Assembly: GCA_016280845.1 (NCBI GenBank)
Contig: JAEEHO010000138.1
Span: forward strand, 1 to 35,448
DNA length: 35,448 nucleotides
Source of the DNA: Paludibacteraceae bacterium
GTDB lineage: Bacteria; Bacteroidota; Bacteroidia; Bacteroidales; Paludibacteraceae
Reading direction: 5' to 3'
The notes under the pieces are model-generated. The model did not search any database, was not told the origin of the DNA, and was given only the letters and a program-made list of their open reading frames with translations. Shown here piece after piece: positions 10,856 to 34,345 of this stretch; within the stretch, counting starts at the first letter, position 1, and every line of letters starts with the position of its first letter. The position numbers were made by a program, and so were the translations under genes.

Positions 10856-13384
10856 ATGAAACGTACTTTTCATATAGTAATACTATGCGTAGCAGCGGCG
10901 CTTCAAGCGTCCGCTGCTACGTGGTATATCCGAACCGATGGTTTGGATGGTAACGACGGCCGTTCGTGGGAAAACGCACAAGCAACTATTCGTTTGGGTA
11001 TTGACAACTGCCGCCCGGGTGACACCTTGCTGGTTGAAGCAGGTGTATATTACGAGGGAATTTCTATTAAAGAAGGTATTAAGATTTTTGGTGGATGCAC
11101 TGCATTTGAACCATTTAACCGCAAACGCAACCATGAAGACAAAACAATTCTTGATGGAGAAGGATTAGGTACACGTTTGATTACAACAGACGCTGATTGT
11201 ACCAAACCTACCGTTATCGAGGATTTTGTTCTTCAAAATGCGCGCCACGACCAACGAGGCGGTGCAGCATGGTTGAAAGGAAAAGTCCGCATGCGTCATT
11301 GCATCATCCGCGGATGTAGCGGTTTGCAATGCGGTGGCGTACTTATCAAGGGAGATCTACCTGAAGCCTCTGCTCTGGGAGCAGAATTGGAAGACTGCCT
11401 TATATACAACTGTTCCGCAACAGGTCATGAGTGGCCGGACGCAGGCGGAGTTGCTAATTTTGACGGAACACTGACTAATTGTATTATAGCCAATTGCTAT
11501 GGAGACCGTTATGGCGGCATTCACTCCGAAAGTTCCGTATATGACTGCATATTCTGGGGCAACAAAAACGAATATGGTTTCGTTGACCCGTCTAACTACG
11601 TTTCAGACGAAAGCATTTCGGGCACTAGTCGCGCCGATGAAGGTTTTGAAGACCATTTCTTCAAGAAACCGTGGTTGTCGTCAGACAATGAAGCGGAGGA
11701 TGGTCCTCATTTCCGTGATCCATCCAGTTTCGTAGGTGTACCTATCACAGATGCAGAGCAGGCCATCATGCTGGCAGCTGACTATAGCGTTGGACCTGCC
11801 ACACATCGTATCGCATCAATGCCGCCGGCATCTCCGCGTGCGAATATTCCTACAGATTTGATTTCATTCCCGTGCGAGAAACGCATAGGAAACACAACAT
11901 ATCGTTCTGCCGATTACACTGTTCCTTCTTTTATTGCATTCCTGCTAGACAAGAAGGCTAAATTAGTATCCAAAGAACAACCATACAATATGGTAGCAAC
12001 CATCAATGGTGATCCTATGACCCGGATGGGTTTCTGTTGGTTTACCAACGAAGGTATCACAGAAGGTAAAGTTCAGCTGGTGGCAAAAGCAAACGCTACC
12101 GCTGCGGACTTTACAGGCGATGCAGTTATTAGTGTAACAGCAAACGCAACTACAACAGCTCCTTTGCACTACGCAATATCGACTTCGGGGATTCTCAAAG
12201 CTGCACGTATTGACAAAAACACTGCCTTCCGTTATGTAAGCCACAAAGCACTTGCAGAAAACCTGAAACCGGGCACAGATTACTCATATCGCGTAGGTTA
12301 TGATGGTCATTGGAGTGACATTGCTCATTTCCGCACAGCGGACACACAACAGGGCGAGTTTTCTTTCATCTATATGACGGATAGCCATATTCAAAATCAA
12401 GAATATGTAGACGCTGCGCGTCTGTGTGCAGAGGCTGTTGCCAAGAATGAGAAGAACGCTCGTTTCTGCGTGTTCCCGGGTGATTTTGTGGATACTGGTA
12501 CGGACAATAACTCCGAGTGGGAGTGGGAGCGTTGGTTTGACGAGGTTATGAAACCCATCATCACACAGATGCCTATCGTGCCGACAGATGGTAACCACGA
12601 TGACTCGCCGTTATTAAACTACACATACCATTTCAACACCGACACTACGTTCAATCTCGAAACCAAAGTGCGCCCGCAGTTCGCAGGTATTAACTATAGT
12701 TTTAGTTACGGCAATCTACAATTGATTGCATTCTCCGAGCAAGATTTTTGGCGCGGAGAATATGACTACGAGACTCTTACATCCGAATACCTTGAGCGTG
12801 ACTTAGGCGGTTGGTTCCGTCGTCAGGTAGCAAAAGCACCAAATGCACAATGGCGCGTAGGATTGGTACACAAGAATCTGTTCTCCGGATCGGACCATCA
12901 ACGTGACAAAGAAACGCCGTTACTCCGCGCTACCTTGCTGCCAGTAATGAAAGACTGCAAAATAGATATGGTTTTACAGGGACATGACCACACGTATGAG
13001 ATTATCGGTCCGGTAGATCCTGATACGCGCAAGCCTATTCTGTCTGCAATCTCACAGCGTGAAGTAGTACCGGCATCAATGCCAAGCAATATCACCGGAT
13101 ACAAAAACGGTACATATAACGTCAAAAACGGCACGTTGTACTTTATCGGTGCTACTTGTGGAGCTAAACGTTATACCCCGCTGACTCGCGAAGAAATGGA
13201 TGCATCGAAGCACATCCACAAGATAGACAACTATTTTGATCTCTTCACAGGTATGTTCGGCCAACCGGGCGCACCGAGTTACACTCGTGTAACCGTGAAG
13301 AAGGATCACTTGTTGTTGGAGTCCTTCAAGGTATTAGAGAACGGAAAAACAGAATTGTTTAACACCATAAAAATAACACACTAA
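10856..13384 (+). CDS. Secreted right-handed beta-helix + Fn3/PAP-N-like + calcineurin-type metallophosphoesterase (member 1; no C-terminal motif)
   Basis: Start at ATG 10856 (MKRTFHIVILCVAAALQASA). TWYIRTDGLDGNDGRSWENAQATI beta-helix start; MPE motifs YMTDSHI, VFPGDFVDTG, PTDGNHDDS, LVHKNLFSG, QGHDHTYE. Confidence 0.87.
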   Translation: MKRTFHIVILCVAAALQASAATWYIRTDGLDGNDGRSWENAQATIRLGIDNCRPGDTLLVEAGVYYEGISIKEGIKIFGGCTAFEPFNRKRNHEDKTILDGEGLGTRLITTDADCTKPTVIEDFVLQNARHDQRGGAAWLKGKVRMRHCIIRGCSGLQCGGVLIKGDLPEASALGAELEDCLIYNCSATGHEWPDAGGVANFDGTLTNCIIANCYGDRYGGIHSESSVYDCIFWGNKNEYGFVDPSNYVSDESISGTSRADEGFEDHFFKKPWLSSDNEAEDGPHFRDPSSFVGVPITDAEQAIMLAADYSVGPATHRIASMPPASPRANIPTDLISFPCEKRIGNTTYRSADYTVPSFIAFLLDKKAKLVSKEQPYNMVATINGDPMTRMGFCWFTNEGITEGKVQLVAKANATAADFTGDAVISVTANATTTAPLHYAISTSGILKAARIDKNTAFRYVSHKALAENLKPGTDYSYRVGYDGHWSDIAHFRTADTQQGEFSFIYMTDSHIQNQEYVDAARLCAEAVAKNEKNARFCVFPGDFVDTGTDNNSEWEWERWFDEVMKPIITQMPIVPTDGNHDDSPLLNYTYHFNTDTTFNLETKVRPQFAGINYSFSYGNLQLIAFSEQDFWRGEYDYETLTSEYLERDLGGWFRRQVAKAPNAQWRVGLVHKNLFSGSDHQRDKETPLLRATLLPVMKDCKIDMVLQGHDHTYEIIGPVDPDTRKPILSAISQREVVPASMPSNITGYKNGTYNVKNGTLYFIGATCGAKRYTPLTREEMDASKHIHKIDNYFDLFTGMFGQPGAPSYTRVTVKKDHLLLESFKVLENGKTELFNTIKITH

Positions 13385-15144
13385 TGAAAACAAAGAATTT
13401 ATTTTATCCGTTGCTGTTAGGCAGCATGATGTTTGCTTCTTGTAAGCCGGAAATAGTAAATCCGCCAACTCCACCAGAAGAAGACACAACCCAAGTTTAT
13501 GTTCCTAAAACTGAAGTTGAAAAAGTTGACTCGGCCTACCAGGCGAAAGATTACACCGTACCCAGTTTTACACAACTTTGCATTGCAAAAGAAGCTGCTC
13601 GCGCAAATATGACAGCAGAAAATCTTGCCTTGATGTACGAAAAGGTCAGCCTATTGGTTGGCAAAGAAGAACCATACAATATGGTTGCTACCATCAATGG
13701 CGATCCTAAAACTCGCATGGGTTTCTGTTGGTTTACCAATGATAGTATCTTAGATGGTGAAGTTCAATTAGTCGCAAAGGAAGATGCTACCGAGGAAGAT
13801 TTTGCTAGCAGTGCCATCACTATACCTGCTACAGCAAAGCAAACCAAAGCTCTTCGATATTGTGGTATCTGCTCATATATCGTAGCACACTCAGGTATTG
13901 CAAAAGGAGAAAAGTTCCGTTATATCAGCCATAAAGCTTTAGCAGAGAATCTAACCCCTGGGACAAACTATTCATGGCGCGTAGGATATGAAGGTCATTG
14001 GAGCGATATTGCCCATTTCCGTACCCAAGATGCAAGCCAAGGAGAATTCTCTTTTATTTACATGAGTGATAGCCATATCATGAACCCAGACTACGTTTCC
14101 TACGCACGCCGTTGCGCTTTGGCTGCAGTAAAGACGGTTCCTGAGGCTCGTTTCTGTGTATTCCCTGGTGACTTTGTAGAAGATGGAACTATTGCCAATA
14201 GTGAGTGGGAATGGGAACGTTGGTTTGAAGAGTCGTTGGAACCGGTCATAAAGCATATGCCAATTGCTCCTACCGACGGAAACCATGATGATAGCCAAAA
14301 TTTGAATTACACCTACCACTTCAACACTAATAATGATTTCTCTCAAATCAACAAAAGAGCACAGTTTGAGGGAATCACATATAGTTTTACTTATGGCGAT
14401 GCATTATTTCTTATCTTCTCAATGCAAGATTTTTGGCGTCAGGACTATAGTATGGTAGATTGGACTTCTATTTATTTAAGTGATGTTAGCAAATGGTTCC
14501 GTCAGGAGACAGCAAAGAATCCTAACACAAAGTACCGCATTTCATTATCACACTTCAATCTCTTCTCGGGTTCGGACCACTCTACAGATGAGGATCCTCC
14601 TTTGTTCCGTCATTGCATGTTACCAACAATGAAGGCTTGCGAAATTGATGTCGCTCTTCAAGGACATGATCACACATATGAAGTTATTGGTCCCGTTAAT
14701 CCTGACAATTGTACTCCTATCTTGAGTGCTATTTCAGACCGAGAAGAAGTTGCAATTGACGCTGAAAAGAATGTAACCGGCTACAAAGGAGGAACCTATT
14801 GCACCGATGATGGTACGCTCTACTTTATTGGTGCGACTTGCGGCCGCAAACGTTACTATCCCCATGATCGTGCACGCATGGAGAAAGACTATGCCGCAAC
14901 TCCAGAAGAGTTAAAGAAGGGTAAACATGACGTAGAGAACTATTTCGATCTCTTCACTGGCATGTTTGGACAACCGGGAAGACCATCTTTTACAAAAATC
15001 ACTGTAAAGGACGATTGCATTGAATTTAACTCATACACAGCTGATAACGATGAGGGAGACGTAACTCTCTTCAATACCATGCGTGTAGTTCGTACCAAGG
15101 CGCACACAACACCTGCATTGTCAATGCCTGCATACAAAAAATAA
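13384..15144 (+). CDS. Lipoprotein Fn3/PAP-N-like + metallophosphoesterase (member 2; lacks beta-helix)
   Basis: MKTKNLFYPLLLGSMMFASCKPE (lipobox FASC). MPE motifs YMSDSHI, FPGDFVEDG, PTDGNHDDS, LSHFNLFSGSDH, QGHDHTYE. Start overlaps upstream stop (TAATG). Confidence 0.87.
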   Translation: MKTKNLFYPLLLGSMMFASCKPEIVNPPTPPEEDTTQVYVPKTEVEKVDSAYQAKDYTVPSFTQLCIAKEAARANMTAENLALMYEKVSLLVGKEEPYNMVATINGDPKTRMGFCWFTNDSILDGEVQLVAKEDATEEDFASSAITIPATAKQTKALRYCGICSYIVAHSGIAKGEKFRYISHKALAENLTPGTNYSWRVGYEGHWSDIAHFRTQDASQGEFSFIYMSDSHIMNPDYVSYARRCALAAVKTVPEARFCVFPGDFVEDGTIANSEWEWERWFEESLEPVIKHMPIAPTDGNHDDSQNLNYTYHFNTNNDFSQINKRAQFEGITYSFTYGDALFLIFSMQDFWRQDYSMVDWTSIYLSDVSKWFRQETAKNPNTKYRISLSHFNLFSGSDHSTDEDPPLFRHCMLPTMKACEIDVALQGHDHTYEVIGPVNPDNCTPILSAISDREEVAIDAEKNVTGYKGGTYCTDDGTLYFIGATCGRKRYYPHDRARMEKDYAATPEELKKGKHDVENYFDLFTGMFGQPGRPSFTKITVKDDCIEFNSYTADNDEGDVTLFNTMRVVRTKAHTTPALSMPAYKK

Positions 15145-15158
15145 GTAAACGTTAAGAA

Positions 15159-17420
15159 ATGCAACGTTCGATTCTAATACTCACATTGTCTGTGCTGCCG
15201 ATATTAGCGGCAGCGGGCGTTGTGAGTGTCACTCCAGGCGGAAGCAACCGCATAAAAACTGCGGCTGCTTCCGCTGCTTCCGGAGATACTCTGATGCTTA
15301 GTTCCGGTGATTATACCGAAACAAGCACAATAGAACTCTCCAAACCCCTGGCAATCATTGCAACAGAGGGCGCAAAACCTATTCTAAAAATGAGCGCACG
15401 CCTTCAAACCAAAACACAATTGATTCTGAAAGGACTTACTCTAATAGGAAACACTCAAGAGGCTGTACGTCTTGTGGCAGCAGAGAAAGATACGTTAGCA
15501 TCATTACACATGGCGAATTGTACGCTAAGTGGATACACAAGCAAATTCATTCGCGCGTACAACGAGGATAAAACAATTCCGTATATTGATAGTATCAGTA
15601 TTGATAACTGTATCTTCAATATAGAAGGTTCGTCCGTGCGCACAGTGCAAGCATCAAAAGCCGACAGACAACTACGCCATTTCAAACTGACTCGTTCTAC
15701 TTTTAACGGTGGCAGCGGTACAGAACGTATCATCTATATTAGTTCTGCTGAAGGCGCAACGATTGAATCTGCAGAAATAGACCATTGCACGTTCTTTAAC
15801 TCTATTGCTCCGCGCGCCATCTATTTGGCAAACATCGATGGAGCGAGAGTCTGTAACTGCATTTTGATGAATGTATCTGCGATAGATGGGAACCAAGGAT
15901 TTTGTCTGTATGGTAAAAATTCCTCGATTACACACTGCATAGCCTACAATGCGCCGGTATACGGTTCGCTCGGTAGTGTCACAAAGGTATATAACCGCAA
16001 TCCTCGATTTATGAATGCAGCAGCAGGAGACTTCCGACTCTACGCCAATTCTCCCGCAATAGGCAAAGCAACGGATGGATCCAATATCGGAGATCCGCGT
16101 TGGGAAGTGACAAGCGAAGTGTACAATGACCCGAATGAACCTTACATTCCGTACAAGAAACCTTATTCGATGGCGCCGACAACTAATTCAGTTAAGATTC
16201 TTTGGCAGATGAATGAAGAAGACAAACCTACCGAAGCAACTATTCGCTATGGTATTAATCGTGATAACCTTGATATGCAGATAACGAGTAGTGAGGGGTG
16301 GAATGTCGAGGATGAAGGTTACATGCATATCATCACACTGACTAGTCTGCAACCTTTCACTCGCTATTATTTCACGGTAGGCGATGGAACGCGTTGGTAT
16401 GCAGACACATGCAGCACCAAAACCGCTCCGGAATTAGGGACTGCATTCCGAATCTTTACTATCTCTGATATCCACGGCAATGCGCACAACAATTGGGCAA
16501 ATATGCAAGATACTATTTGTGCGTTGAACCCGGATATCAGCCTTATGAATGGCGATTTTGTTAGTAGCAAAGGTAATGACCGCAATTGGAACAAGTACTT
16601 CTTTACTCCGGGTGCACAGTTTCTGTCGCAAGTCCCATTGATGTCTTCAGTCGGCAATCATGAAACTGGCGACCCGTTCACATATCGATGGGCTTCCTAT
16701 TACGATTATTTTCATCAATTCAGTCATGGCACCCCAGAGGATACAATCAAGGACCCGCGCGGAGAAGCTTATTTCCATTTTACATATGGCAATGCTGATA
16801 TTGTAATGTTGAACCTCAACGGAGATCCATCTTCCCCAGATTTTTTGCCGGGCAGTAAACAGTATGAATGGGCTGATTCCGTCCTAAATACTTGTGATCG
16901 CCCGTGGATTATCGTTTGCCATCATGTGGGTGTGCATACCACCGGCTATCACGGGCAGTGGGCTGACGAACCTCGACAAATGGGAACGTTATTTGAGAAG
17001 TATGCAAAACAAGGAAAGCGTATAATATCTTTGTCGGGTGATGATCATTCGTTTGAGCATCTATATAAAGATGGTGTACACTACGTACGCCCGGGTTGTG
17101 GCCGCGACGCCAACTATGACCAGCAAACACAGTTGAATGATTATCGCTACTCATTATTCTATCGCCGCACATCTTGCTTCTCGCTGCTTGATATGGCAGC
17201 AGATGCATCAACCATTGATCTCACCGCATGCGATTCGGTCGGCAATATTTTCTATACCTACCGTTTCATGTTGGATGGCAGTGATCGAACTCCTATTGCA
17301 GAAACAATAGTTAATAGTACTTGCCCAAAAAAGGTACTCATTGATGGAAATATAATGATCCATCGCCCGGATGGACAGTTATATTCGGTAGTCGGAATGG
17401 CTATACGAAGAAAGGAATAG
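15159..17420 (+). CDS. Secreted beta-helix + Fn3 + divergent metallophosphoesterase (member 3) with short C-terminal motif
   Basis: Signal peptide MQRSILILTLSVLPILAAAG; GDTLMLSSGDYTETSTIEL beta-helix; TISDIHG, MNGDFVSSKG, SSVGNHETG, VCHHVGVHTTGYHG, SGDDHSFEHL; C-term VLIDGNIMIHRPDGQLYSVVGMAI. Confidence 0.83.
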   Translation: MQRSILILTLSVLPILAAAGVVSVTPGGSNRIKTAAASAASGDTLMLSSGDYTETSTIELSKPLAIIATEGAKPILKMSARLQTKTQLILKGLTLIGNTQEAVRLVAAEKDTLASLHMANCTLSGYTSKFIRAYNEDKTIPYIDSISIDNCIFNIEGSSVRTVQASKADRQLRHFKLTRSTFNGGSGTERIIYISSAEGATIESAEIDHCTFFNSIAPRAIYLANIDGARVCNCILMNVSAIDGNQGFCLYGKNSSITHCIAYNAPVYGSLGSVTKVYNRNPRFMNAAAGDFRLYANSPAIGKATDGSNIGDPRWEVTSEVYNDPNEPYIPYKKPYSMAPTTNSVKILWQMNEEDKPTEATIRYGINRDNLDMQITSSEGWNVEDEGYMHIITLTSLQPFTRYYFTVGDGTRWYADTCSTKTAPELGTAFRIFTISDIHGNAHNNWANMQDTICALNPDISLMNGDFVSSKGNDRNWNKYFFTPGAQFLSQVPLMSSVGNHETGDPFTYRWASYYDYFHQFSHGTPEDTIKDPRGEAYFHFTYGNADIVMLNLNGDPSSPDFLPGSKQYEWADSVLNTCDRPWIIVCHHVGVHTTGYHGQWADEPRQMGTLFEKYAKQGKRIISLSGDDHSFEHLYKDGVHYVRPGCGRDANYDQQTQLNDYRYSLFYRRTSCFSLLDMAADASTIDLTACDSVGNIFYTYRFMLDGSDRTPIAETIVNSTCPKKVLIDGNIMIHRPDGQLYSVVGMAIRRKE

Positions 17421-17454
17421 AAATACTTTTTTGTTTAACCCAATACCTAATCGT

Positions 17455-20400
17455 ATGAAGAAATTTTTTCTCTCATTGACGCTGTGCATTGTCAGTCTAT
17501 ATGCGTCAGCAACTATTTACTACGTCAGTCCTTCGGGCAATGACGACAACAACGGCACGAGTTGGTCTTCCGCCAAAGCTACCATCTCTGCAGCAATCAC
17601 TGCCTCTAAATCAGGCGACGAAGTACGTGTTGCTGCCGGCACTTACAACGAGGCCATTACCGGTAAAAACGGTGTCAGTATCCATGGCGGTTACAACCCC
17701 TCGACGGATGCGCGCGACATCGATGCCTTGAGGTCCATCGTTGATGCTACCGGTCAAAACAAACCAGCTCTCAAATTCGCAGCATGCTCGTCCATAACCT
17801 ATGTTGATGGACTTGTGCTACAGAACGCAGAACACACCACAAATGGCGGAGGTGCTAATATCGGAGCAAATGTTGTTCTGGATCACTGCACCATTCGCAA
17901 TTGTAAGGGTGCCGCCGGTGGTGGTATCTATGCAGTAGCCAGCAAAGAAGATGCCCCAGCTCTTATCAAAAATTGTATCATTGAATTGTGTGAATCAACT
18001 AGTGATGGTGGCGGTGTTTTCTTGTCTGCATTTGCCATTATGGATGGTTGTATCGTTCGCGGTTGTGATGGTAAATATGGAGCAGTTGTTGTCGGTAACG
18101 ATCAAAACAACCCGGGATGTATTCTACGCAATACTGTTATTCACAATAACTCTTGCACTATAGCCGGCTGGCCTGCTTCTGGCGGCATATACAATCGTAC
18201 AGGAGGTTTGGTACAGAACTGTACAGTATGCAATAATTTTAGTGACGGAGGAGGCGGTTACGCCGGAATTCACTCTGAGGGAAGAGTTAACAACTCTGTT
18301 TTTTGGGGCAATCAGACTGTAGAAGGGTTCGTAGACCCGGTTAACTACATTGGCTCTTCAAATAGTTTCAACAACTATGGAGACCAAGGATTTGGTACGT
18401 TTACCTATAACAAAATGTCGTTGGACAACACAGCTGATAAAGGTCCTAAATTCAACAACCCGACAACCTATATCGGTAAACCTAGCAATGCGGGAGAGAT
18501 TGCCGCAATGCAGAATGCAGATTTTTCTTTGACTAAGGGATCATACCTTATTGACAAAGGTAGAGCAAACGTGGCTCCTGAAACAGACATTCTCGGTGTA
18601 GCACGCCCCATCGGTCCTAAACCGGATATCGGTGCCTATGAGTTCGATCCGGATGCCCCAATGATAGCCGTAACCGGGTTGTCTATCTACGAGGATTCGG
18701 TACATATTATTATGGGTCAAACAGGCGGTGTATCACCTATTATTACTCCGTCTAACGCAAGCAACAAACGCCTTACATGGCGTATTGACAACACGACTAT
18801 AGCAACAGTCAGCACTAATGGTGCCATCACGGGTGTAGCAATAGGTAAGACTCTTGTACATGCCACTACCGTGGACGGTAATTTCAGTGCGACAGCAGTG
18901 GTGGACATTCTGCCTATTCCGCCTGTTAAGTATCCGGATGAAGTAGTAGCGGCTGACTCACTCTACAAGATTGAGGATTACACCGTTCCGAGTTACATCC
19001 CATTCTGGGCAGCCAAGGAAGTTGCGCGTATCGACAGTCTCTCGGCCACATCGGAGGAAATTGCTTCGATAGCCGGCAAGGTTGAGGCGATGAATGCCGC
19101 TATCGCACAATTGGTGGCTAAAACCGAGCCGTATAACATGATCGCCAATATCAATGGCGATCCTACTACGCGCATGGCATTCTGCTGGTTCACCAATGAA
19201 GGAATCACTGACGGAAAGGTACAAATCGTGGCTAAGGCTGACGCTACTGCCGCTGACTTTGACGACACCGGAGTTATCGAAATTGATGCGACACCAACAA
19301 CAACCAAGCCGCTCAACTATGCTGTTTCCACTTCTGGTATTATCACCTCCACCCACATGAGCGCGAAACAGAAATTCACCTACGTCAGCCACAAGGCTTT
19401 GGCTACTAATTTGACCCCGGGAACTGCCTATAGTTGGCGTGTCGGTTACCCCGGTCACTGGAGTGATATCGCTCAATTCCACACCAAGGATGCAGAGCAG
19501 GGCGAATTCTCGTTCGTCTATATGACTGATAGTCATATCATGAATCAAGAGTACGTTGATAACGCACGTTGGTGCGCAGAGGCTGTAGCCAAGACCGCAG
19601 CCGATGCTCGTTTCTGTCTCTTCCCGGGTGACTTTGTAGAGACTGGCGAAAGCGGTAACTCTGAATGGGAATGGGAACGTTGGTTCGAAGAGTCTATCAA
19701 ACCAGTTATCATGAAGATGCCTATTGTGCCGACCGACGGTAACCACGATGATAGTCCGAATCTCAACTACAACTACCACTTCAATACCGACAATGCGTTC
19801 AATCTGACAGCGAAAACAAAGCCCCAATTTGACGGAATCACCTATAGCTTCGAGTACGGTGATGTGTTGTTCCTCGTTTATTCGCTCCAAGACTGGTGGC
19901 GCGCAAGCGGCAGCAGTGCATCTACACGTCGTTCCAGCTATCTGTCCACCGACCTGAAGAACTGGTTCTATGACCAAGTTGAGGCACACCCGAATGCTAA
20001 GTATCGCGTCACTTTGGCACACAAGAATATTTTCTCCGGTTCGGGACACTCGATTGATGACGAGACTCCGATGTTCCGTGATATCATGTTGCCTATCTTC
20101 GCTGACTGCCAAATCGACTTAGCTATCCAGGGTCATGACCACTGTTACGAGGTAATCGGTCCGGTTAACCCTTGGAAGCGTACTGCCATCACTGATGCTA
20201 TTTCTGACGTTGAAACAGTCACTGCCGGTTCGGATACGAATATCACCGGCAAGAAGGGTGGTACTTATGTTGTAGATGATGGCACATTATACTTTATAGG
20301 TGCCACTTGCGGTCGCAAGCGTTATTCACCATATAGCCGCGCTACTATGGAAAGCAACATAAACAAACACCATGTAGAGAATTATTTTGACTTGTTTACC

Positions 20401-20688
20401 GGTATGTTCGGTCAACCGGGTGCTCCTTCGTTTACCAAGTTCACCGTAAAGAGTGATTGCATCGAGATTAACTCCTATACTGCAGATAGCAATGGAGATG
20501 CCACTTTGCTCAACACGATGAAAGTAAAGCGCACAAAGGCACACACTCCTCCTACCGCTATCGAGAACGTGAACTCCTTCGCTACTCGCGATGGCGAGAA
20601 ATTTATCCAAGACGGACAAATATTTATTCGCATCAACGGCATGATATACAACATGCTTGGCGAAAAAGTTGAATCATTTAACCAATAA
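17455..20688 (+). CDS. Secreted beta-helix + BIG2-like + Fn3/PAP-N-like + metallophosphoesterase (member 4) with short C-terminal motif
   Basis: Start reassigned to ATG 17455 (MKKFFLSLTLCIVSLYASA). YYVSPSGNDDNNGTSWSSAKATI; LTWRIDNTTIATVSTNGAITGVAIGKT (BIG2-like); YMTDSHI, FPGDFVETG, PTDGNHDDS, QGHDHCYE; C-term KFIQDGQIFIRINGMIYNMLGEKVE. Confidence 0.88.
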   Translation: MKKFFLSLTLCIVSLYASATIYYVSPSGNDDNNGTSWSSAKATISAAITASKSGDEVRVAAGTYNEAITGKNGVSIHGGYNPSTDARDIDALRSIVDATGQNKPALKFAACSSITYVDGLVLQNAEHTTNGGGANIGANVVLDHCTIRNCKGAAGGGIYAVASKEDAPALIKNCIIELCESTSDGGGVFLSAFAIMDGCIVRGCDGKYGAVVVGNDQNNPGCILRNTVIHNNSCTIAGWPASGGIYNRTGGLVQNCTVCNNFSDGGGGYAGIHSEGRVNNSVFWGNQTVEGFVDPVNYIGSSNSFNNYGDQGFGTFTYNKMSLDNTADKGPKFNNPTTYIGKPSNAGEIAAMQNADFSLTKGSYLIDKGRANVAPETDILGVARPIGPKPDIGAYEFDPDAPMIAVTGLSIYEDSVHIIMGQTGGVSPIITPSNASNKRLTWRIDNTTIATVSTNGAITGVAIGKTLVHATTVDGNFSATAVVDILPIPPVKYPDEVVAADSLYKIEDYTVPSYIPFWAAKEVARIDSLSATSEEIASIAGKVEAMNAAIAQLVAKTEPYNMIANINGDPTTRMAFCWFTNEGITDGKVQIVAKADATAADFDDTGVIEIDATPTTTKPLNYAVSTSGIITSTHMSAKQKFTYVSHKALATNLTPGTAYSWRVGYPGHWSDIAQFHTKDAEQGEFSFVYMTDSHIMNQEYVDNARWCAEAVAKTAADARFCLFPGDFVETGESGNSEWEWERWFEESIKPVIMKMPIVPTDGNHDDSPNLNYNYHFNTDNAFNLTAKTKPQFDGITYSFEYGDVLFLVYSLQDWWRASGSSASTRRSSYLSTDLKNWFYDQVEAHPNAKYRVTLAHKNIFSGSGHSIDDETPMFRDIMLPIFADCQIDLAIQGHDHCYEVIGPVNPWKRTAITDAISDVETVTAGSDTNITGKKGGTYVVDDGTLYFIGATCGRKRYSPYSRATMESNINKHHVENYFDLFTGMFGQPGAPSFTKFTVKSDCIEINSYTADSNGDATLLNTMKVKRTKAHTPPTAIENVNSFATRDGEKFIQDGQIFIRINGMIYNMLGEKVESFNQ

Positions 20689-20694
20689 AACTGT

Positions 20695-26091: not shown

Positions 26092-26114
26092 TGGAACACT
26101 CATATGTGACATTT

Positions 26115-26158: not shown

Positions 26159-26204
26159 TATGTTCTCAAATTATTTAATATAAAAACAACCAATTAAAGT
26201 GCTT

Positions 26205-29200
26205 ATGAGAAAAATCGTACTGATTTTAACTATTTGTGCATCGACGCTGAATGCGCTTGCAACTACTTATTACGTCAAACCTGACGGAAACAACAACAAC
26301 GATGGTAAAAGCTGGAGCAAAGCCAAAAAGACTATTAGCGGTGCTCTCGGGTCTGCAACAGTGGGAGATGAAATTCATGTAGCTCAAGGTACCTATAACG
26401 AGCAATTGAGTTTGGCAGATGGCGTTGCTATTAAGGGAGGTTACAACACTTCCGATGAGAGGAATATTGATAAGTACCAAACTATCATTGATGGTACCGG
26501 CATTGCTTCTACATCGTATCTTATAGTTCGGTATTTGCCGAAAAACGCAACTTATGTAACGAATCCTATACTGCTTGAAGGTTTAGTCATTCAGAACTCG
26601 AATAGCAGTGCATGGGGAACGGGAACTCTATTCCTTCGTGGAAATATGACCGTCAACCGTTGCCATTTTCGTAATTGCAAGAGCACCAACACCGATCCGG
26701 GCGCCGGAGCTATTTATATAGAGAATGATGATGCACCCAATGCTGCTATTGTAAGCAATTGTATTTTTGAATTGTGCGAAGGCTACAAGAGTGCTGCTAT
26801 ATATAATAACCATGCAAATGGTACAATTGAGAATTGTATATTCCGAGGTTGCACAGGAACTTACGCAGTTGTGCGTAACTATAAAGCAGGAGGCATCGTC
26901 CGCAACTGTTTGTTTCACAACAACACTATCATCGAATCCAGTGCAAAAGGAGCTGTTGAGAACAACGGTTTGATGATTAACTGCACCGTATGTAACAACT
27001 TTTCTACAGGATACGCCGGAGTAACCACTAATTCCGGAGGTAAAACCTATAACTGTGTATTCTGGGGTAACAAAGCTGCAGATGGTTTCACTTCGGCGGT
27101 CAACTATATATCCAGCAGTAGCTCGTCGAGCCACAACGTAGCCGACGAGGGAACATCGTCAAGCAAGTTCTTGAGCCTCTCTTTGGCTGCCAACAACTAC
27201 GATGCTGCCGGTCCCAATTTCGGCAACCCGACGGCTTTCGTTGGTGCACCGACCACTGACGCAGAAAAAACGGCTATGCAGAATGCCGATTTCTCGCTGA
27301 CCGCTGCTTCGACAGCGCTGCTGAACAAAGGGACGAGCACTAACGCACCGTCCACCGATATCAACGGCACTGCACGTCCTAAAGAAAACGGCTATGATAT
27401 CGGTTGCTATGAATACGATCCGAACGCTGCAAGCGTTGCGCTACAAGGAATACAGATTATGCAAGATACCCTCTATGTATCAATAGGAGCATCGGGTGCT
27501 TTTACCGTAATCTATACTCCGGGCAATGCGACCAACAAGCAACTGAATTGGACCATTGACGATACGTCTATTGCTACCATCAACGGAGGTCTCGTTACCG
27601 GCGTTACGGTTGGTAAGACCAAAGCACATGCAACTTCTGTTGATGGAGGATTCACTGATGAAGCAGTTGTAGTAATCCGTCCGAAAGCTTATCCGCATGA
27701 AGTGTTGGACGCTGATGCCAACTACCACATCGAAGATTATACGGTGCCTACGTTCATCGAGTTCCTTGTAGCAAAAGAGAATGCACGTATCGACAGTTTC
27801 ACTTGCAAGGACATGAGTATCATCACTGAGAAACTGGCTATCTTTGCAGAGAAAAAAGCTAACCTGAAGAGCAAATATGAGCCGTACAATATGATTGCCA
27901 ACTTCAATGGTGATCCTAAGACCCATATGGCTTTCTGCTGGTTTACCAACGGTGGTGTCACCAACGGTAAGGTTCAGTTGGTAGCAAAGGCTAACGCCAA
28001 GGCTACGGATTTCTCCGGTTCGAATGTTATTGAGGTTAACGCTACGGCTACTACCACTAACCCACTCCACTATACGCCTATTCAGCCGACCGAGAGTGAG
28101 AAGTATGATATCTGTACTGCAGCAGGACTTCCGCGTGACCAGTACTTCACTTATGTCAGCCACAAGGCGCTGGCCGAGAACCTGACTCCGGGAACAACGT
28201 ACAGCTGGCGTGTAGGCTACAGCGGCCACTGGAGCGAGATAGGTCAATTCAAGACGAAAGACGCTAACCAAGGCGATTTCTCGTTCATCTATATGTCGGA
28301 CAGCCATATTCAAGACTACGAATATATTGAGCAGGCACGTCAGTGTTCAGAGGCTGCCGTTAAGAACGAGAATAACGTCAGCTTCTGCGTCTTCCCGGGT
28401 GACTTTGTAGATACCGGTGGAGAGACCAACTCGGAATGGCAGTGGGAGCGTTGGTTCGAAGAATCGACCAAACCGGTTATTATGAAGATGCCGCTTGTGG
28501 TAACCGACGGTAACCACGATGACAGCAAATTGGACAACTACGACTACCACTTCAATACCGACTGGGGTTTCTACAACGGCGCACAAACCAAACCGCAGTT
28601 CAAAGGAATCACCTACAGTTTCGTCTATGGCGATGTACTATTCCTGGTTTACTCGCTGCAAGACTGGTGGCGTGCCAAGGGTAGTAGCGACAAGAACATG
28701 GTCTCCAGTTATATCACTACCGATATCCGTAATTGGTTCCTGGATCAAGTTGCTGCTTATCCGAACACCAAGTATCGCGTAACACTTGCCCACAAAACGA
28801 TCTTCTCCGGTGCCGGTCACCACGTAGATGACGAGACTCCACTGTTGCGCGAATTGATGTTGCCTATCCTGAAAGAATGCCAAATTGACTTGGCTATCCA
28901 AGGTCACGACCACTGCTACGAAATCATCGGCCCGGTTAATCCGGACACGCGTACCGTTGTAAGCGGTGCTGTCAGCGGTGTTCAGACTGTTTCTACAGGT
29001 GGAAAAAACGAGAATATGACAGGTAAAGCCGGGGGTACATTTACCACAGACGAAGGTACCGTTTATTTCGTAGGTGCTACTTGCGGTCGCAAACGCTACT
29101 CTCCTCGCACCCGCGCTAAGTTGGAAGAAGAATATACTACCGACGCAAGCATATTGTTCGATGGCAAGCACCATAACGTGAATAACTACTTCGATCTCTT

Positions 29201-29483
29201 CACCAGTATGTTCGGTCAACCGGGCGCACCGAGCTACAGCCGTTTCAATGTATCGAGCAACGGTATCGAAATCAAGTCGTACAAGACAGACGAATACGGT
29301 AACTCGACACTCTATAACACTGTCAATATTGTAAACAGCAAGCAACCGTCCGTGACCACCGGACTGGAAAATGCAGCGACAGACAGAGAGTTCCGCGGGG
29401 GTGAGAAATTCATCCGTGACGGACAACTATATATCCGCATTGACGGCGAGACATACAATGTCTTCGGTCAGAAAGTAGATTGA
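26205..29483 (+). CDS. Secreted beta-helix + BIG2-like + Fn3/PAP-N-like + metallophosphoesterase (member 6) with short C-terminal motif
   Basis: Start reassigned to ATG 26205 (MRKIVLILTICASTLNALA). YMSDSHI, FPGDFVDTG, VTDGNHDDS, LAHKTIFSGAGHH, QGHDHCYE; C-term KFIRDGQLYIRIDGETYNVFGQKVD. Confidence 0.88.
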   Translation: MRKIVLILTICASTLNALATTYYVKPDGNNNNDGKSWSKAKKTISGALGSATVGDEIHVAQGTYNEQLSLADGVAIKGGYNTSDERNIDKYQTIIDGTGIASTSYLIVRYLPKNATYVTNPILLEGLVIQNSNSSAWGTGTLFLRGNMTVNRCHFRNCKSTNTDPGAGAIYIENDDAPNAAIVSNCIFELCEGYKSAAIYNNHANGTIENCIFRGCTGTYAVVRNYKAGGIVRNCLFHNNTIIESSAKGAVENNGLMINCTVCNNFSTGYAGVTTNSGGKTYNCVFWGNKAADGFTSAVNYISSSSSSSHNVADEGTSSSKFLSLSLAANNYDAAGPNFGNPTAFVGAPTTDAEKTAMQNADFSLTAASTALLNKGTSTNAPSTDINGTARPKENGYDIGCYEYDPNAASVALQGIQIMQDTLYVSIGASGAFTVIYTPGNATNKQLNWTIDDTSIATINGGLVTGVTVGKTKAHATSVDGGFTDEAVVVIRPKAYPHEVLDADANYHIEDYTVPTFIEFLVAKENARIDSFTCKDMSIITEKLAIFAEKKANLKSKYEPYNMIANFNGDPKTHMAFCWFTNGGVTNGKVQLVAKANAKATDFSGSNVIEVNATATTTNPLHYTPIQPTESEKYDICTAAGLPRDQYFTYVSHKALAENLTPGTTYSWRVGYSGHWSEIGQFKTKDANQGDFSFIYMSDSHIQDYEYIEQARQCSEAAVKNENNVSFCVFPGDFVDTGGETNSEWQWERWFEESTKPVIMKMPLVVTDGNHDDSKLDNYDYHFNTDWGFYNGAQTKPQFKGITYSFVYGDVLFLVYSLQDWWRAKGSSDKNMVSSYITTDIRNWFLDQVAAYPNTKYRVTLAHKTIFSGAGHHVDDETPLLRELMLPILKECQIDLAIQGHDHCYEIIGPVNPDTRTVVSGAVSGVQTVSTGGKNENMTGKAGGTFTTDEGTVYFVGATCGRKRYSPRTRAKLEEEYTTDASILFDGKHHNVNNYFDLFTSMFGQPGAPSYSRFNVSSNGIEIKSYKTDEYGNSTLYNTVNIVNSKQPSVTTGLENAATDREFRGGEKFIRDGQLYIRIDGETYNVFGQKVD

Positions 29484-29489
29484 TAATAA

Positions 29490-29531
29490 CGGGCACTCCC
29501 AAACTCTTCCTAACGATTGAGGGAGTGCCCG
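29490..29531 (+). terminator. Hairpin CGGGCACTCCC / GGGAGTGCCCG
   Basis: Perfect 11-bp inverted repeat 7 nt after the stop of member 6; loop ~20 nt; no strong T-tract. Confidence 0.55.
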
Positions 29532-29566
29532 TCTATTACTAAACACACACTAAAAAACAATAAGCA

Positions 29567-29671
29567 ATGAAAACTCATTTAGCCTTATTATTCGCTTATT
29601 ATCCGCAACGGCAATAATATATCCGCATAGACGGCAAGACGTACAACGCGCTTGGCGAGATTGTGGAATAA
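29567..29671 (+). pseudogene. Relic of a further array member: start-like codon plus intact C-terminal tail YIRIDGKTYNALGEIVE*
   Basis: 29618..29671 translates to YIRIDGKTYNALGEIVE-stop, matching the family C-terminus (YIRIDGKTYDVLGQEVK in member 7). It is preceded by ATG AAA ACT CAT TTA GCC... (MKTHLALLFAYYPQRQ*) and a stop; the rest of the gene is absent. Confidence 0.7.
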
Positions 29672-29715
29672 ACAATATTTTTTTCATTTAATTTTAATTA
29701 CTAATTACAAAAAAC

Positions 29716-32700
29716 ATGAAACGATTGTTTTTATTATTGACGGTCTGCGCATCTGCGTTGTACTCGTCAGCCGGTTATCGTTATGTCAGCCAAACAAGCG
29801 GTGACAACAACAATGATGGACTGTCGTGGGCGACAGCCAAGAAAACTATTACGGCAGGTATCGGTGTAGCCTCGTCAGGCGACAGTGTGCTTGTCGCAGC
29901 CGGCACCTACAATGAGAGTGTCAGCATGGTAGACGGTGTTGCCATTCTTGGAGGTTACAACGCTGCAACCGGCGAGCGCGACATTGACAAATACGAGTCC
30001 ATCGTGGATGGTACAGGTATTAGTTCTAACTTGGTTGTTAAGTACTCACCAAACCCCGAAGTCCGCATTCTTTTTGAGGGTTTTACCGTTCAAAATGCCA
30101 ACAATGCACAATGGGGTTCGCCAACTATCTATCTGCGCGCCAACATAACTATTAACCGCTGTCACATTCGTAATTGCAAAGCGAATGACACAGATACCGG
30201 CGCAGGCGCTGTCTATATTGACACAAAAGCAGAGACTAACCCTCCCGCAATCATCAGCAATTGTCTCATTGAGTTTTGCGAGGGATCGAAGGGTGCAACC
30301 GCTATCTACAACAAGGGCGGTATTATCGAGAACTGTATTATCCGCGGTTGTACAGGCGAACGAAATGTTATCCGCAACTATAACGCAGTCAGCACTGTTC
30401 GCAACTGTCTGATATACAACAACACCATCATCGGAACCGGAAGCCGAGGCGCTATCGAGAACAACAAGGGTCTGGTGGTAAACAATACCGTTTGTAACAA
30501 CTACGCTCCTGACTACGCAGGTATCAAGGGCGACGAGAGCGGCAAGAACTACAACAATATATTCTGGGGCAACAAGTCCGCTGACGGATTTGGAGAGGCA
30601 ACCAACTATATATCGAGTGGCAGTGCGTCGAGCCATAACGTAGCAGACCAGGGTGTTGCCGAGAGCAAGTTCCTGAGTGTCTCGCTGGCAACAAACAATT
30701 TCGCAGCAGACGGTCCGAACTTCAGCAACCCGACTTCGTTTGCCGGTGCGCCGACATCTTACGCAGACACTATCGCTATGCTGAATGCCGACTTCACTCT
30801 GACGGCTGCTTCGACCGCACTGTTGAACAACGGTTTGGCATCCCAAGCACCGGAGACAGACATCAATGGCACAGCACGTCCGATTGGAGAAGGTGTAGAT
30901 ATGGGTTGCTACGAATATAACCCGGGTGCGGCTGCTGTTGCGCTGACAGGAGCAACTATTCTGCAAGATACGATCTGGGTATCCGTGGGCACATCGGGCG
31001 CATTTGCCGTGCTGTTTACTCCGTCTAACGCTACCAACAAGCGCACCAACTGGACCATTGACGATGAGACTATCGCTACCATCAGCAACGGTTTGGTTTC
31101 CGGTGTAAAGGTTGGTACTACCGTAGCACGCATGACTTCGGTGGACGGTAACTTCACCGACACCGCAGTAGTGGTTATCCGTCCTTGGATCTTCCCGAAC
31201 GAAGTGCTGGCTGCCGATACACTCTACAAGATGGGTGAATATACCATTCCGTCATTCATCGAGTTCCTCGTTGCCAAGGAGGAAGCACGTATCGACAGTT
31301 TGACATGCAAGGACCTGAACGTCATCAGCGAAAAACTGGCCGCTATGAATGCTATGATCGGTAAACTCAAAACTAAGGAAGAGCCATACAACCTGATTGC
31401 CAATATCAACGGCGATCCTAAGACGCACATGGCGTTCTGCTGGTTTACCAACGAAGGTATCAAAGAGGGCAAGGTGCAACTTCTGCCGAAGGCTAATGCG
31501 ACCGCAGAAGACTTTGCATCGATAAACGGTGTGATCACCGTTCCGGCAACAGCCACCACTACTGTTCCGTTGCACTACACTCCTATTCAGCCAAGCGAGA
31601 GCCCGAAGTACGATATCTGTACCGCAGCCGGTCTGCCACGTAATACCTATTTCACCTACGAGAGCCACAAGGCTTTGGCAGAGAACCTGACACCTGGTAC
31701 AACCTACAGTTGGCGTGTCGGCTTCGACGGTCACTGGAGCGCTATCGGTCAATTCAAGACACAGGCTGCCAACCAAGGCGATTTCTCGTTCATCTATATG
31801 TCGGACAGCCACATCCAGGATGCAGAGTACATCGAATATGCCAATATGTGTGCAAAGGCGGCAGCCAAGAACGAGAAGGATGTGAATTTCTGCCTCTTCC
31901 CGGGTGACTTTGTAGATACCGGCGATGAGACCAACTCCGAATGGCAATGGGAGCGTTGGTTTGAAGGAGCCATCAATCCTGTGCTGATGAATATGGCAGT
32001 AGTGCCGACGGACGGTAACCACGACGACAGCCCGCTGGACAACTACGACTACCACTTCAATACCGACTGGGGTTTCTACAATGCTGCACAAACCAAGCCG
32101 CAGTTTAAGGGTATCACCTATAGTTTTGTTTACGGTGACGTCCTCTTCCTCGTTTATTCGTTGCAAGACTGGTTCCGTAGCGAACCGGGCGAACATCCGG
32201 AGACATCGATGAAATCAGACTACCTCAAGAACGATGTACGCAACTGGTTCGTACAGCAATGTGCTGCACACCCGAATGTTAAGTACCGTGTGACACTGAG
32301 CCACAAGAATATCTTCTCAGGCGCCGGTCACCACTTGGATTCAGAGACTCCGGTATTGCGTGAAATGATGTTGCCTATTCTGAAGGAATGTGAGATTGAC
32401 CTGGCTATCCAAGGTCACGACCACTGCTACGAAGTGATCGGCCCGATCAACCCGGACACACGTAAGGTGGTAGAAGGAGCAGTAGCAGACGTACAGACTG
32501 TTGCCGTTGAGTCGGAAAAGAATGTTACGGGTAAATCCGGCGGTACGTTTACTACAGATGACGGAACACTCTATTTCATCGGAGCAACCTGTGGTCGCAA
32601 GCGCTATTATCCGCACAACCGCAGCAAACTGGAGAGTGAGTACACCACCAATACCTCCATCTTGTTCGACGACGAGCACCATAACGTAGAAGGTCTGTTT

Positions 32701-32991
32701 GATTTGTTCACCAGTATGTTCGGTCAGCCGGGCGCTCCGAGTTACAGCCGCTTCAATGTGACAAGCGAAGGAATCGAAGTTAAGTCCTACACCACAGACG
32801 AAGAAGGCAACTCTACTCTGTACAACACGATCAATGTGAAACGTACCAAACCGCACACTATTCCGCAGGGTTTCGAAAACGTATCGTCCGAAACCAATGT
32901 TCGCAATGGTGAAAAGTTCATCCGTGACGGAAGGATATACATTCGCATAGACGGTAAGACATATGATGTGCTTGGTCAAGAAGTAAAATAA
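29716..32991 (+). CDS. Secreted beta-helix + BIG2-like + Fn3/PAP-N-like + metallophosphoesterase (member 7) with short C-terminal motif
   Basis: Close paralogue of member 6. YMSDSHI, FPGDFVDTG, PTDGNHDDS, LSHKNIFSGAGHH, QGHDHCYE; C-term KFIRDGRIYIRIDGKTYDVLGQEVK. Confidence 0.88.
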   Translation: MKRLFLLLTVCASALYSSAGYRYVSQTSGDNNNDGLSWATAKKTITAGIGVASSGDSVLVAAGTYNESVSMVDGVAILGGYNAATGERDIDKYESIVDGTGISSNLVVKYSPNPEVRILFEGFTVQNANNAQWGSPTIYLRANITINRCHIRNCKANDTDTGAGAVYIDTKAETNPPAIISNCLIEFCEGSKGATAIYNKGGIIENCIIRGCTGERNVIRNYNAVSTVRNCLIYNNTIIGTGSRGAIENNKGLVVNNTVCNNYAPDYAGIKGDESGKNYNNIFWGNKSADGFGEATNYISSGSASSHNVADQGVAESKFLSVSLATNNFAADGPNFSNPTSFAGAPTSYADTIAMLNADFTLTAASTALLNNGLASQAPETDINGTARPIGEGVDMGCYEYNPGAAAVALTGATILQDTIWVSVGTSGAFAVLFTPSNATNKRTNWTIDDETIATISNGLVSGVKVGTTVARMTSVDGNFTDTAVVVIRPWIFPNEVLAADTLYKMGEYTIPSFIEFLVAKEEARIDSLTCKDLNVISEKLAAMNAMIGKLKTKEEPYNLIANINGDPKTHMAFCWFTNEGIKEGKVQLLPKANATAEDFASINGVITVPATATTTVPLHYTPIQPSESPKYDICTAAGLPRNTYFTYESHKALAENLTPGTTYSWRVGFDGHWSAIGQFKTQAANQGDFSFIYMSDSHIQDAEYIEYANMCAKAAAKNEKDVNFCLFPGDFVDTGDETNSEWQWERWFEGAINPVLMNMAVVPTDGNHDDSPLDNYDYHFNTDWGFYNAAQTKPQFKGITYSFVYGDVLFLVYSLQDWFRSEPGEHPETSMKSDYLKNDVRNWFVQQCAAHPNVKYRVTLSHKNIFSGAGHHLDSETPVLREMMLPILKECEIDLAIQGHDHCYEVIGPINPDTRKVVEGAVADVQTVAVESEKNVTGKSGGTFTTDDGTLYFIGATCGRKRYYPHNRSKLESEYTTNTSILFDDEHHNVEGLFDLFTSMFGQPGAPSYSRFNVTSEGIEVKSYTTDEEGNSTLYNTINVKRTKPHTIPQGFENVSSETNVRNGEKFIRDGRIYIRIDGKTYDVLGQEVK

Positions 32992-33019
32992 TAAAGGCCG
33001 TTGTTCATTATAATCTTTT

Positions 33020-33059
33020 GTTCGCTGTATTCGCTCTAAGTGGGGCGGGTACAGCGAAC
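33020..33059 (+). terminator. Intergenic hairpin (GTTCGCTGTA / TACAGCGAAC), copy 2 of repeated element
   Basis: 10-bp perfect stem just downstream of member 7. A second perfect 10-bp stem, CTTTTGTTTC (33059-33068) / GAAACAAAAG (33077-33086), follows immediately. Confidence 0.5.
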
Positions 33060-33157
33060 TTTTGTTTCGAAAGGCGGAAACAAAAGGTTTAAAACGAAAG
33101 GTTTTTAATGTTCTACAGCATAAAACGGGGCAAAATGGCATAAATTTTAATTTTTAA

Positions 33158-33189
33158 TTTGCGTATATTAAGATAAAGTATTATCTTTG
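33158..33189 (+). promoter_or_regulatory. Bacteroidetes-type promoter (-33 TTTG 33158..33161; -7 TATCTTTG 33182..33189)
   Basis: Consensus TAnnTTTG with a 20-nt spacer, about 90 nt upstream of ATG 33281. Confidence 0.65.
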
Positions 33190-33280
33190 CAACCGAAAAG
33201 AGGAAAAAGTTTTGTTTTTAAAACGATAACCATATTTTTCATTTAACCCAATTATTTAAACTAATAAAAATTCTAATCTT

Positions 33281-34345
33281 ATGAAGAAAATTTTTTCACT
33301 TTGCGCTACGCTGATTGCAGCGCTGGCAATGAATGCTAATGAAATTAACATCCAGCCAGGTCACAATGCTCTTAAGACCGCTATCACAGGTGCTTCTGCC
33401 GGAGATGTCATCATCCTTGCGGATGGTGAATATACAGAGGATGGAGACTTCGATTTGAAGAATCTCACGATCCAGGCTGCAGAAGGAGCTCACCCTGTAA
33501 TTAAACACACCTACTATTTTAAGATAGAGAATGGAGAGAGTGTGACGATTAAAGGCATTAAATTTGACGGAAGTACTTCAACAGACCACTGCCTTCGTTC
33601 ATATACTAACTCAACAGGAACAGAGGACGTGACATTGATTGACTGTGAGTTCACCGGCTATACCAAAGGCTATATAGTTTATACGCAACGCGCTAACAGA
33701 AGATGGAATTCTGTTACCATTCGTAACTGCTATTTTCATAATAACAAACGCAGTGCGATTTATATTACTAACGAGTCAGGTGATAATCAGTCTTGTAATG
33801 CACTAACCATAGAAAACTCCACTTTTGCCAATTTTGAAGAGGCGTATGATGTTATATATTATAATGCTCCAGAAGCAGAACACACTACTTCTCTGAGCAT
33901 AGATCATTGTACTTTCTATGGTCATCCGAAGCGAGCTATTTATTGGCAAAAGTCTGAAAATATTGCAGTAAGCAATTGTATTTTCTCTCAGTCGGCTGAA
34001 AATACCTATAAGTCTGTAGAATGCGTAGGTGGTACGATTTCGAATTGTCTTTCTTATAATACTGCAGGTTATAGTTCAGAAGCAACCAGTACGGATAATA
34101 TTACAGGTGATCCTCAATTTGCAGATGCAGCTAATGGCGACTTGACTTTGGCAGAGACTTCTCCTGCAATCAACGCAGGTACCGATGGTAAGACTCTGGG
34201 TGACTCTCGTTGGTATCCGAAGACCGGAACCGGTATCAGCAACAATACTGTAAGCGCAAAGGCTGTTAAGTTCATTGAGAACGGTCAGCTCATCATCATG
34301 AAGAATGGTGTTAAATATGACATCACCGGCGCTATCGTAAAGTAA
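33281..34345 (+). CDS. Secreted stand-alone right-handed beta-helix protein (DUF4957/DUF5123-like) with short C-terminal motif
   Basis: Signal peptide MKKIFSLCATLIAALAMNA; GHNALKTAITGASAGDVIILADGEYTEDG; C-term KFIENGQLIIMKNGVKYDITGAIVK. Confidence 0.82.
   Translation: MKKIFSLCATLIAALAMNANEINIQPGHNALKTAITGASAGDVIILADGEYTEDGDFDLKNLTIQAAEGAHPVIKHTYYFKIENGESVTIKGIKFDGSTSTDHCLRSYTNSTGTEDVTLIDCEFTGYTKGYIVYTQRANRRWNSVTIRNCYFHNNKRSAIYITNESGDNQSCNALTIENSTFANFEEAYDVIYYNAPEAEHTTSLSIDHCTFYGHPKRAIYWQKSENIAVSNCIFSQSAENTYKSVECVGGTISNCLSYNTAGYSSEATSTDNITGDPQFADAANGDLTLAETSPAINAGTDGKTLGDSRWYPKTGTGISNNTVSAKAVKFIENGQLIIMKNGVKYDITGAIVK

Follow-up and report, generated by a model that had tools for sequence, protein, structure and literature searches.

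The window analyzed here is the 35,448-nucleotide contig JAEEHO010000138.1, one of the 375 contigs (C205) of the 2.84 Mb genome of a Paludibacteraceae bacterium (assembly GCA_016280845.1). It holds an array of nine + strand open reading frames arranged head to tail (10841 to 34345; numbered g1 to g9 in strand order, Table 1), seven of which encode PF00149 metallophosphoesterases and two of which encode beta-helix proteins only. The array is the middle part of a larger gene cluster that begins at least at position 3531, and its membership in a polysaccharide utilization locus (PUL) for galactosamine is well supported, and is seen directly in related genomes. In our assessment the chances are about even that the array constitutes the surface phosphoesterase module of this PUL, which would harvest galactosamine from a phosphate-bearing glycan.

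The clustering of phosphoesterase genes is far beyond chance: of the eleven PF00149 matches in the entire genome, seven lie on this 35 kb contig. An earlier, sequence-only reading of the window had described seven metallophosphoesterase genes on the same strand, a BIG2-like module in four of them, and two interspersed stand-alone helix proteins. All three counts agree with the Pfam matches, which place PF00149 above the cut-off in seven + strand genes and Big_2 in exactly four, and which assign DUF5123 to g6 and g9, neither of which contains a phosphoesterase domain. The genes that it placed at 10856–34345 are real, but the surrounding galactosamine PUL, functionally the most informative part of the locus, went unseen. 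The first five intergenic gaps of the array range from −1 to 21 bp and the last three measure 107, 232, and 289 bp. For g1, the listed ATG at 10841 and a second in-frame ATG at 10856 are equally plausible starts, giving either a 13 bp overlap with the preceding PfkB gene or a separation of 2 bp.

Linkage of the Array to a Probable Galactosamine Utilization Locus

We compared the array with 71 relative loci from a public genome collection, mostly metagenome-assembled genomes (MAGs) of rumen Paludibacteraceae, many of which are cut by contig ends. PfkB is visible in 47 of these loci, and in 46 of them the next gene on the same strand is an array phosphoesterase. The standard array in these MAGs is comprised of three phosphoesterase genes (g1, g2, and a long gene of the type represented in the window by g4, g5, g7, and g8), usually followed by a helix gene. 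On the 3′ side of the array, the relatives encode AgaR (on the opposite strand), an Amidohydro_2 lipoprotein, a GH36 lipoprotein, SusC, and SusD; AgaR adjoins the array in 42 of the 71 loci, and SusC is visible in 36, GH36 in 39, and the amidohydrolase in 37. Single contigs in the relatives thus unite a SusC/SusD pair, secreted carbohydrate-active enzymes, and a regulator, the combination by which a PUL is recognized. The window contig ends before any of these five genes, and in its own genome all of them are located on a second contig, C308, where GH36 and AgaR are 80 and 84% identical to those of one relative locus (L064).

Gene presence across 178 genomes of the genus follows the same pattern, with the phosphoesterase found in 68 genomes and GatZ in 72; both occur in 68, the phosphoesterase alone in none, and GatZ only in four. 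GH36 occurs in 70 genomes, 67 of which are shared with the phosphoesterase. Furthermore, the position of the phosphoesterase genes within the same PUL differs among genomes, and three placements occur: from PfkB to AgaR, from AgaR to AgaS (L113), and on the far side of SusD (L111 and L109/L110). This speaks against a single chance insertion that became frozen in place.

The harvested sugar is likely galactosamine or N-acetylgalactosamine (GalNAc), as indicated by the AgaR score, the active-site residues of GH36, and a GatY-type aldolase in a relative operon. AgaR scores 249.9 bits, and 258.6 bits in L105, against a cut-off of 260. The GH36 protein matches FpGalNase, the blood-group-A galactosaminidase of Flavonifractor plautii, with an E-value of 2e-52. 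Nine active-site residues have been named for FpGalNase, with C513 and D532 among those that differ from alpha-galactosidase (PMC11762096). The GH36 protein of the window's genome retains eight of the nine (W317, D346, D347, W387, K461, D463, C513, and D532), with Y464 alone changed, and by these residues it would qualify as an FpGalNase-type alpha-galactosaminidase. The neighbor of GH36 here is the Amidohydro_2 lipoprotein, whereas the partner of FpGalNase in F. plautii is a deacetylase. A GatY-type class II aldolase is found in one relative operon only (L105), and the window's own genome has a partial match of 44% to GatY elsewhere. The predicted enzyme set and regulator family resemble those of the aga pathway for galactosamine and N-acetylgalactosamine (AgaS, PfkB/AgaK, GatY/GatZ, and AgaR), with candidates for all four of its components: AgaS, tagatose-6-phosphate kinase, tagatose-bisphosphate aldolase, and AgaR. 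The locus differs from that pathway in that SusC/D import replaces the phosphotransferase system, a NahK-like kinase is added, and the AgaS and GatZ (KbaZ) models (Table 1) score below their curated cut-offs, as does that of AgaR.

Outside the window's genus the phosphoesterase is nearly always single-copy, and it was present in four of the 33 genera sampled from the wider family. A second type of PUL (L081) contains an ECF sigma factor, FecR, SusC/D, two DUF4832 proteins, two helix-phosphoesterases, and GH31, and a similar arrangement of DUF4832 and phosphoesterase occurs at L086. DUF4832/DUF4874 proteins recur beside helix-phosphoesterases in unrelated gene orders (window 1885–3534, L111, L081, and L090), and may be partner glycan enzymes. 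In Barnesiella, loci L080, L082, and L084 each encode one long helix-phosphoesterase. In a genome from another genus (G338:C269:6307-10881), three phosphoesterase matches lie inside a single open frame of 1698 amino acids, which is a different way of multiplying the domain. Proteins with a VWA domain, 35% identical to one another, are encoded near each half of the PUL (window 2–1570, and 10928–12127 of locus L104 on contig C308); in L104, 6937 bases from about position 13064 onward read N.

Active Site, Accessory Modules, and Export of the Phosphoesterases

Six of the seven phosphoesterases form one family, with mutual identities of 50–66%, and in these the metal-ligand motifs DxH, GD, GNHD/E, H, and GHxH are all present. 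Across 51 aligned relatives, positions D695, H697, D729, N766, H767, H859, H897, and H899 (g5 numbering) are invariant. The seventh, g3, is a distant phosphoesterase whose catalytic part is only ∼20–22% identical to the others, and it has GDDH where the six-member family has GHDH. The sequence-only reading, which had treated all seven as one expanded family with preserved catalytic blocks, therefore holds for six copies and not for g3; it also overlooked the PF16656 domain (Pur_ac_phosph_N, here PAP-N), which lies immediately N-terminal to the catalytic domain in all seven.

The AlphaFold2 model of g5, built from the 51-sequence alignment, is confident, with a mean pLDDT of 88.3. Among solved structures, Foldseek ranks wheat purple acid phytase (E 4e-17) and the purple acid phosphatases (PAPs) of plants closest to it, with Bacillus subtilis PhoD (2yeq, E 1e-13) a weaker match; a sequence search of solved structures with the phosphoesterase part returned no match. 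The plant PAPs and phytase share the domain order of PF16656, which is FN3-like, followed by PF00149. The array enzymes are nevertheless unlike them in being fused to beta-helix and Big_2 modules and in their motifs: in place of DxG and GDxxY, which characterize PAPs, they have DxH and GDxxE/D/S (DSH and GDFVE/GDFVD in the six-member family), and these proteins are therefore PAP-like enzymes and not PAPs. True purple acid phosphatases are ruled out by these motifs, as the tyrosinate ligand of GDxxY, the source of the purple color, is missing.

The helices of the helix-only genes are of the PL6 type, as is that of g3. Both g6 and g9 match DUF5123, and g9 additionally matches DUF4957 and Beta_helix; the AlphaFold model of g9 (pLDDT 84.9) has the PL6 alginate lyase BcAlyPL6 as its nearest solved fold. 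A profile built for the g6/g9 family finds its main match in residues 428–744 of BcAlyPL6, which form the second and non-catalytic helix, and scores only 8.9 bits against the first, N-terminal catalytic helix. The g6/g9-type helices accordingly resemble the second beta-helix of the two-domain PL6 lyases BcAlyPL6 and AlyGC, and align poorly with the N-terminal helix that bears the catalytic arginine (R241 in AlyGC). Because the alignment is to the non-catalytic helix, a binding or structural role appears more likely for them than lyase activity, and PL6 lyase activity of the helix-only genes is unsupported, given the poor match to the catalytic helix with its Lys/Arg pair. A further match of the g6-family profile, in the C-terminal half of g6, is to the starch-binding domain of glucoamylase (1ac0, E 7e-5), and g6 probably carries a CBM20-like module. 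The helix of the g5 model weakly matches GH110 (blood group B galactosidase) and GH136 (lacto-N-biosidase), with TM-scores of 0.09 and 0.17 by query length, matches that mean little beyond a common fold.

The sequence-only reading had called these proteins secreted, in agreement with the signal peptides found here together with either a lipobox or a surface-sorting tail. The lipobox occurs in g2 and a plain signal peptide without a tail in g1, while g3 to g9 share the C-terminal tail EKFIxDGQxYIxxDGxxYNxxGQxV. Searched against the genome, a profile of this tail gives 73 matches at E ≤ 1, of which about 50 are at E ≤ 0.005. The models for the type IX secretion system (T9SS) sorting domain, TIGR04183 and PF18962, did not match g4, g6, g8, or g9. 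Homologs from other taxa (L080 and L081) have the TIGR04183 domain where the window proteins have the tail, and the T9SS protein SprA is encoded in the window's genome; the tail looks like a variant of the T9SS tail. The VWA-domain protein at window 2–1570 ends in a canonical T9SS tail.

The product of g1 is probably periplasmic, since none of its 37 orthologs has the sorting tail. Of the g2 orthologs, 39 are full-length; the 13 of these that end in the tail lack a proper lipobox followed by a linker, and nearly all of the tail-less ones have a lipobox, as judged by eye (Fisher P = 7e-4 with a crude lipobox pattern that gave false positives among the tail-bearing orthologs). The tail and the lipid anchor thus look like alternative routes to the cell surface. 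The predicted locations are external for g3, g4, g5, g7, and g8, the outer membrane for g2, and the periplasm for g1. The invariant metal-ligand positions, the PAP/PhoD-like model, and the signal peptides with lipobox or sorting tail together support the interpretation of these proteins as secreted phosphoesterases that have a complete catalytic apparatus and modules of the carbohydrate type.

History of the Array

Phylogenetic trees built on the catalytic part resolve three old paralog clades (g1, g2, and long) that predate the species compared. The four long genes of the window fall into three lineages (g4; g5; and g7 with g8), and the nearest relative, L050, has g4 and g7 in common with the window. 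The tandem expansion described from the sequence alone is thus correct, and is mostly old. An assembly artefact, which had also been named as a possible source of the copies, is ruled out, as the paralogs are only 50–66% identical and the order PfkB-g1-g2-long recurs in independent rumen Paludibacteraceae MAGs.

Copies come and go: a gene that once lay between g7 and g8 has been lost and has left a decayed sorting tail (Table 1). The interval in which it lies (29484–29715) contains a terminator-like hairpin followed by a collapsed gene, in which a start codon is joined to a frame-broken sorting tail.

Mean identity across the long proteins rises from 51% in the helix to 61% in PAP-N and 68% in the catalytic domain. 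Orthologs also show greater variation in the helix, and the helix identity of the window's paralog pairs is 0 to 1.6 standard deviations below the trend of all pairs. Diversifying substrate recognition among the paralogs, as proposed in the sequence-only reading, is therefore only weakly indicated.

Table 1. Genes of the array and its 5′ flank, with one gene remnant, in the order of their window coordinates.
Feature	Coordinates	Strand	Description	Basis
HAD-family hydrolase	3531..4187	+	possible phosphatase; just 5′ of NahK-like kinase	PF00702 60.9 bits
N-acetylhexosamine 1-kinase-like (NahK-like)	4200..5285	+	APH fold	PDB 4wh1/4ocj NahK E 3e-65
CBM9-family protein	5278..5868	+		PF16011 178 bits
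AgaS-type SIS protein	6059..7180	+	sugar-phosphate isomerase/deaminase	TIGR02815 368.8 bits, cut-off 529.2; PDB 3odp E 1e-77
GatZ/KbaZ-like protein	7220..8449	+	tagatose-bisphosphate aldolase component	PF08013 116.6 bits; KbaZ model 90.3 bits, cut-off 707
Acetyl-xylan-esterase-like (CE7-type) protein	8455..9855	+	lipoprotein	PF05448 149 bits; PDB cephalosporin C deacetylase/AXE E 1e-33; lipobox LLGAC
PfkB	9906..10853	+	sugar kinase	PF00294 167.6 bits
g1	10841..13384	+	signal peptide, shortened beta-helix, PAP-N, phosphoesterase; no sorting tail	PF16656, PF00149 over cut-off; Beta_helix sub-threshold
g2	13384..15144	+	lipoprotein, PAP-N, phosphoesterase; no helix	Pfam; lipobox FASC
g3	15159..17420	+	PL6-type helix (DUF4957/DUF5123), PAP-N, divergent phosphoesterase with GDDH, sorting tail	
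g4	17431..20688	+	beta-helix, Big_2, PAP-N, phosphoesterase, sorting tail	
g5	20695..23937	+	beta-helix, Big_2, PAP-N, phosphoesterase, sorting tail	tree: closest to the long gene that is standard in related species
g6	23959..26091	+	PL6-type helix (DUF5123, PF17161), C-terminal modules, sorting tail; no phosphoesterase	
g7	26199..29483	+	beta-helix, Big_2, PAP-N, phosphoesterase, sorting tail	
Decayed sorting-tail remnant	29601..29670	+	remnant of a sorting tail, with stop	83% over 47 nt to g7 tail; 74% over 72 nt to g4 tail; profile match 29612–29668
g8	29716..32991	+	beta-helix, Big_2, PAP-N, phosphoesterase, sorting tail	
g9	33281..34345	+	PL6-type helix only (DUF4957/DUF5123, Beta_helix), sorting tail	

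Proposed Function and Significance

Glycan phosphate groups block many glycoside hydrolases, and the array may serve to remove such an obstacle. In the proposed scheme, the helix and Big_2 modules would hold the polymer at the cell surface or in the medium, where the PAP-fold domains (external, on the outer membrane, and, in the case of g1, in the periplasm) would remove phosphate or cut phosphodiester links, and the CE7-like lipoprotein would take off O-acetyl groups. This would allow GH36, perhaps together with the amidohydrolase, to free alpha-galactosamine, and SusC/SusD to import the products. Within the cell, the NahK-like and PfkB kinases, AgaS, and the GatZ aldolase component would then route the sugar to glycolysis under the control of AgaR. 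Domain content, intact metal-ligand positions, export signals, operon structure, conserved linkage, and co-occurrence were observed directly, whereas the phosphate on the glycan, the action of the phosphoesterases upon it, the type of reaction, and the order of these steps are inferred. A further possibility, which we put forward only tentatively, is that the helix-(Big_2)-PAP-like proteins constitute a novel glycan phosphoesterase family, and that the PUL, with several phosphoesterases in different compartments, is dedicated to an undescribed phosphorylated galactosamine polymer, e.g., one that other rumen microbes carry as a capsule or in a form resembling teichoic acid.

Several points weigh against the array being a phosphoesterase module for such a glycan. 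A phosphorylated galactosamine polymer is itself a conjectured substrate. NahK-like kinases yield sugar-1-phosphates, whereas AgaS-type enzymes use 6-phosphates, so that the intracellular route is incompletely closed. The downstream half of the PUL is located on a separate contig in this genome, and beyond AgaR the sequence of C308 does not rejoin the array. The co-occurrence figures for the genus are raw counts in which kinship is ignored. The PULs at L105 and L106 have the AgaS-GatZ-PfkB core without a phosphoesterase, and the array is therefore an addition that is not needed for galactosamine use itself. Additionally, the single long homolog in Barnesiella lies outside any PUL, among housekeeping genes (biotin synthesis and others).

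This placement in Barnesiella would also suit a role in scavenging phosphate or phytate, in which the secreted PAP-like enzymes release phosphate from inositol phosphates of plant origin in the rumen and lie in a PUL only incidentally. Phytate is common in ruminant feed, and wheat purple acid phytase and plant PAPs head the structural matches of g5; even so, the ligands that define PAPs are altered, the helix and Big_2 modules suggest a polymer and not a small soluble substrate, and the phosphoesterases are linked to, and almost perfectly co-occur with, a galactosamine PUL whose regulator is of the AgaR type. We regard scavenging as distinctly improbable. The phosphoesterases could instead be depolymerases that, in the manner of PhoD, cut the phosphodiester backbone of phosphoglycans belonging to other rumen microbes, whether capsular or of the teichoic-acid type, as part of a microbe-eating system. 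One of the structural matches is to B. subtilis PhoD, an enzyme that degrades wall teichoic acid; GalNAc-bearing, O-acetylated phosphopolymers occur in Firmicutes walls and capsules, and the PUL provides for hexosamine catabolism and encodes both an esterase and a GH36 resembling alpha-galactosaminidases. The match to PhoD is weaker than those to PAPs, however, and the locus showed no genes for breaking down glycerol or ribitol; depolymerization is in addition a more specific form of the phosphate-bearing glycan proposal, built on a presumed substrate, and we regard it as unlikely.

The resemblance of GH36 to FpGalNase, an enzyme of the deacetylated A antigen, could also point to a PUL for host mucin or A-antigen-like alpha-GalNAc without phosphate, with the phosphoesterases trimming the cell's own surface phosphoglycans. 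The predicted periplasmic and lipoprotein copies would be compatible with such remodelling, as would the matches to GH110 and GH136, both beta-helix enzymes, that the g5 model gives. These matches are weak by the TM-scores given above, and the repeated insertion of phosphoesterases into this PUL suggests that they serve it; we consider remodelling very unlikely.

The phosphoesterase module proposed here would be part of a system that, as in other Bacteroidota PULs, combines SusC/SusD, secreted hydrolases, a local regulator, and monosaccharide catabolism in one cluster, and that is unlike them in having tandem phosphoesterases (three as a rule, seven here) where glycoside hydrolases would normally stand. 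A literature search, with most subscription journals outside its coverage, found no beta-helix/metallophosphoesterase PUL, no teichoic-acid PUL, and no characterized PUL of this composition. The single domains are ordinary; their combination, a phosphoesterase-dominated galactosamine PUL conserved in about 40% of the genomes of a rumen genus, was not described in the literature so covered.

To our knowledge, few secreted glycan phosphoesterases have been described. A conserved rumen PUL dominated by phosphoesterases provides a defined gene set together with a short list of candidate substrates, and its GH36 partner adds relatives to an enzyme studied for blood-group conversion. If the proposed function is correct, these proteins would represent a new enzyme family acting on a phosphorylated amino-sugar polymer, and such a polymer, possibly derived from microbial cell walls, would be a source of carbon and nitrogen in the rumen.

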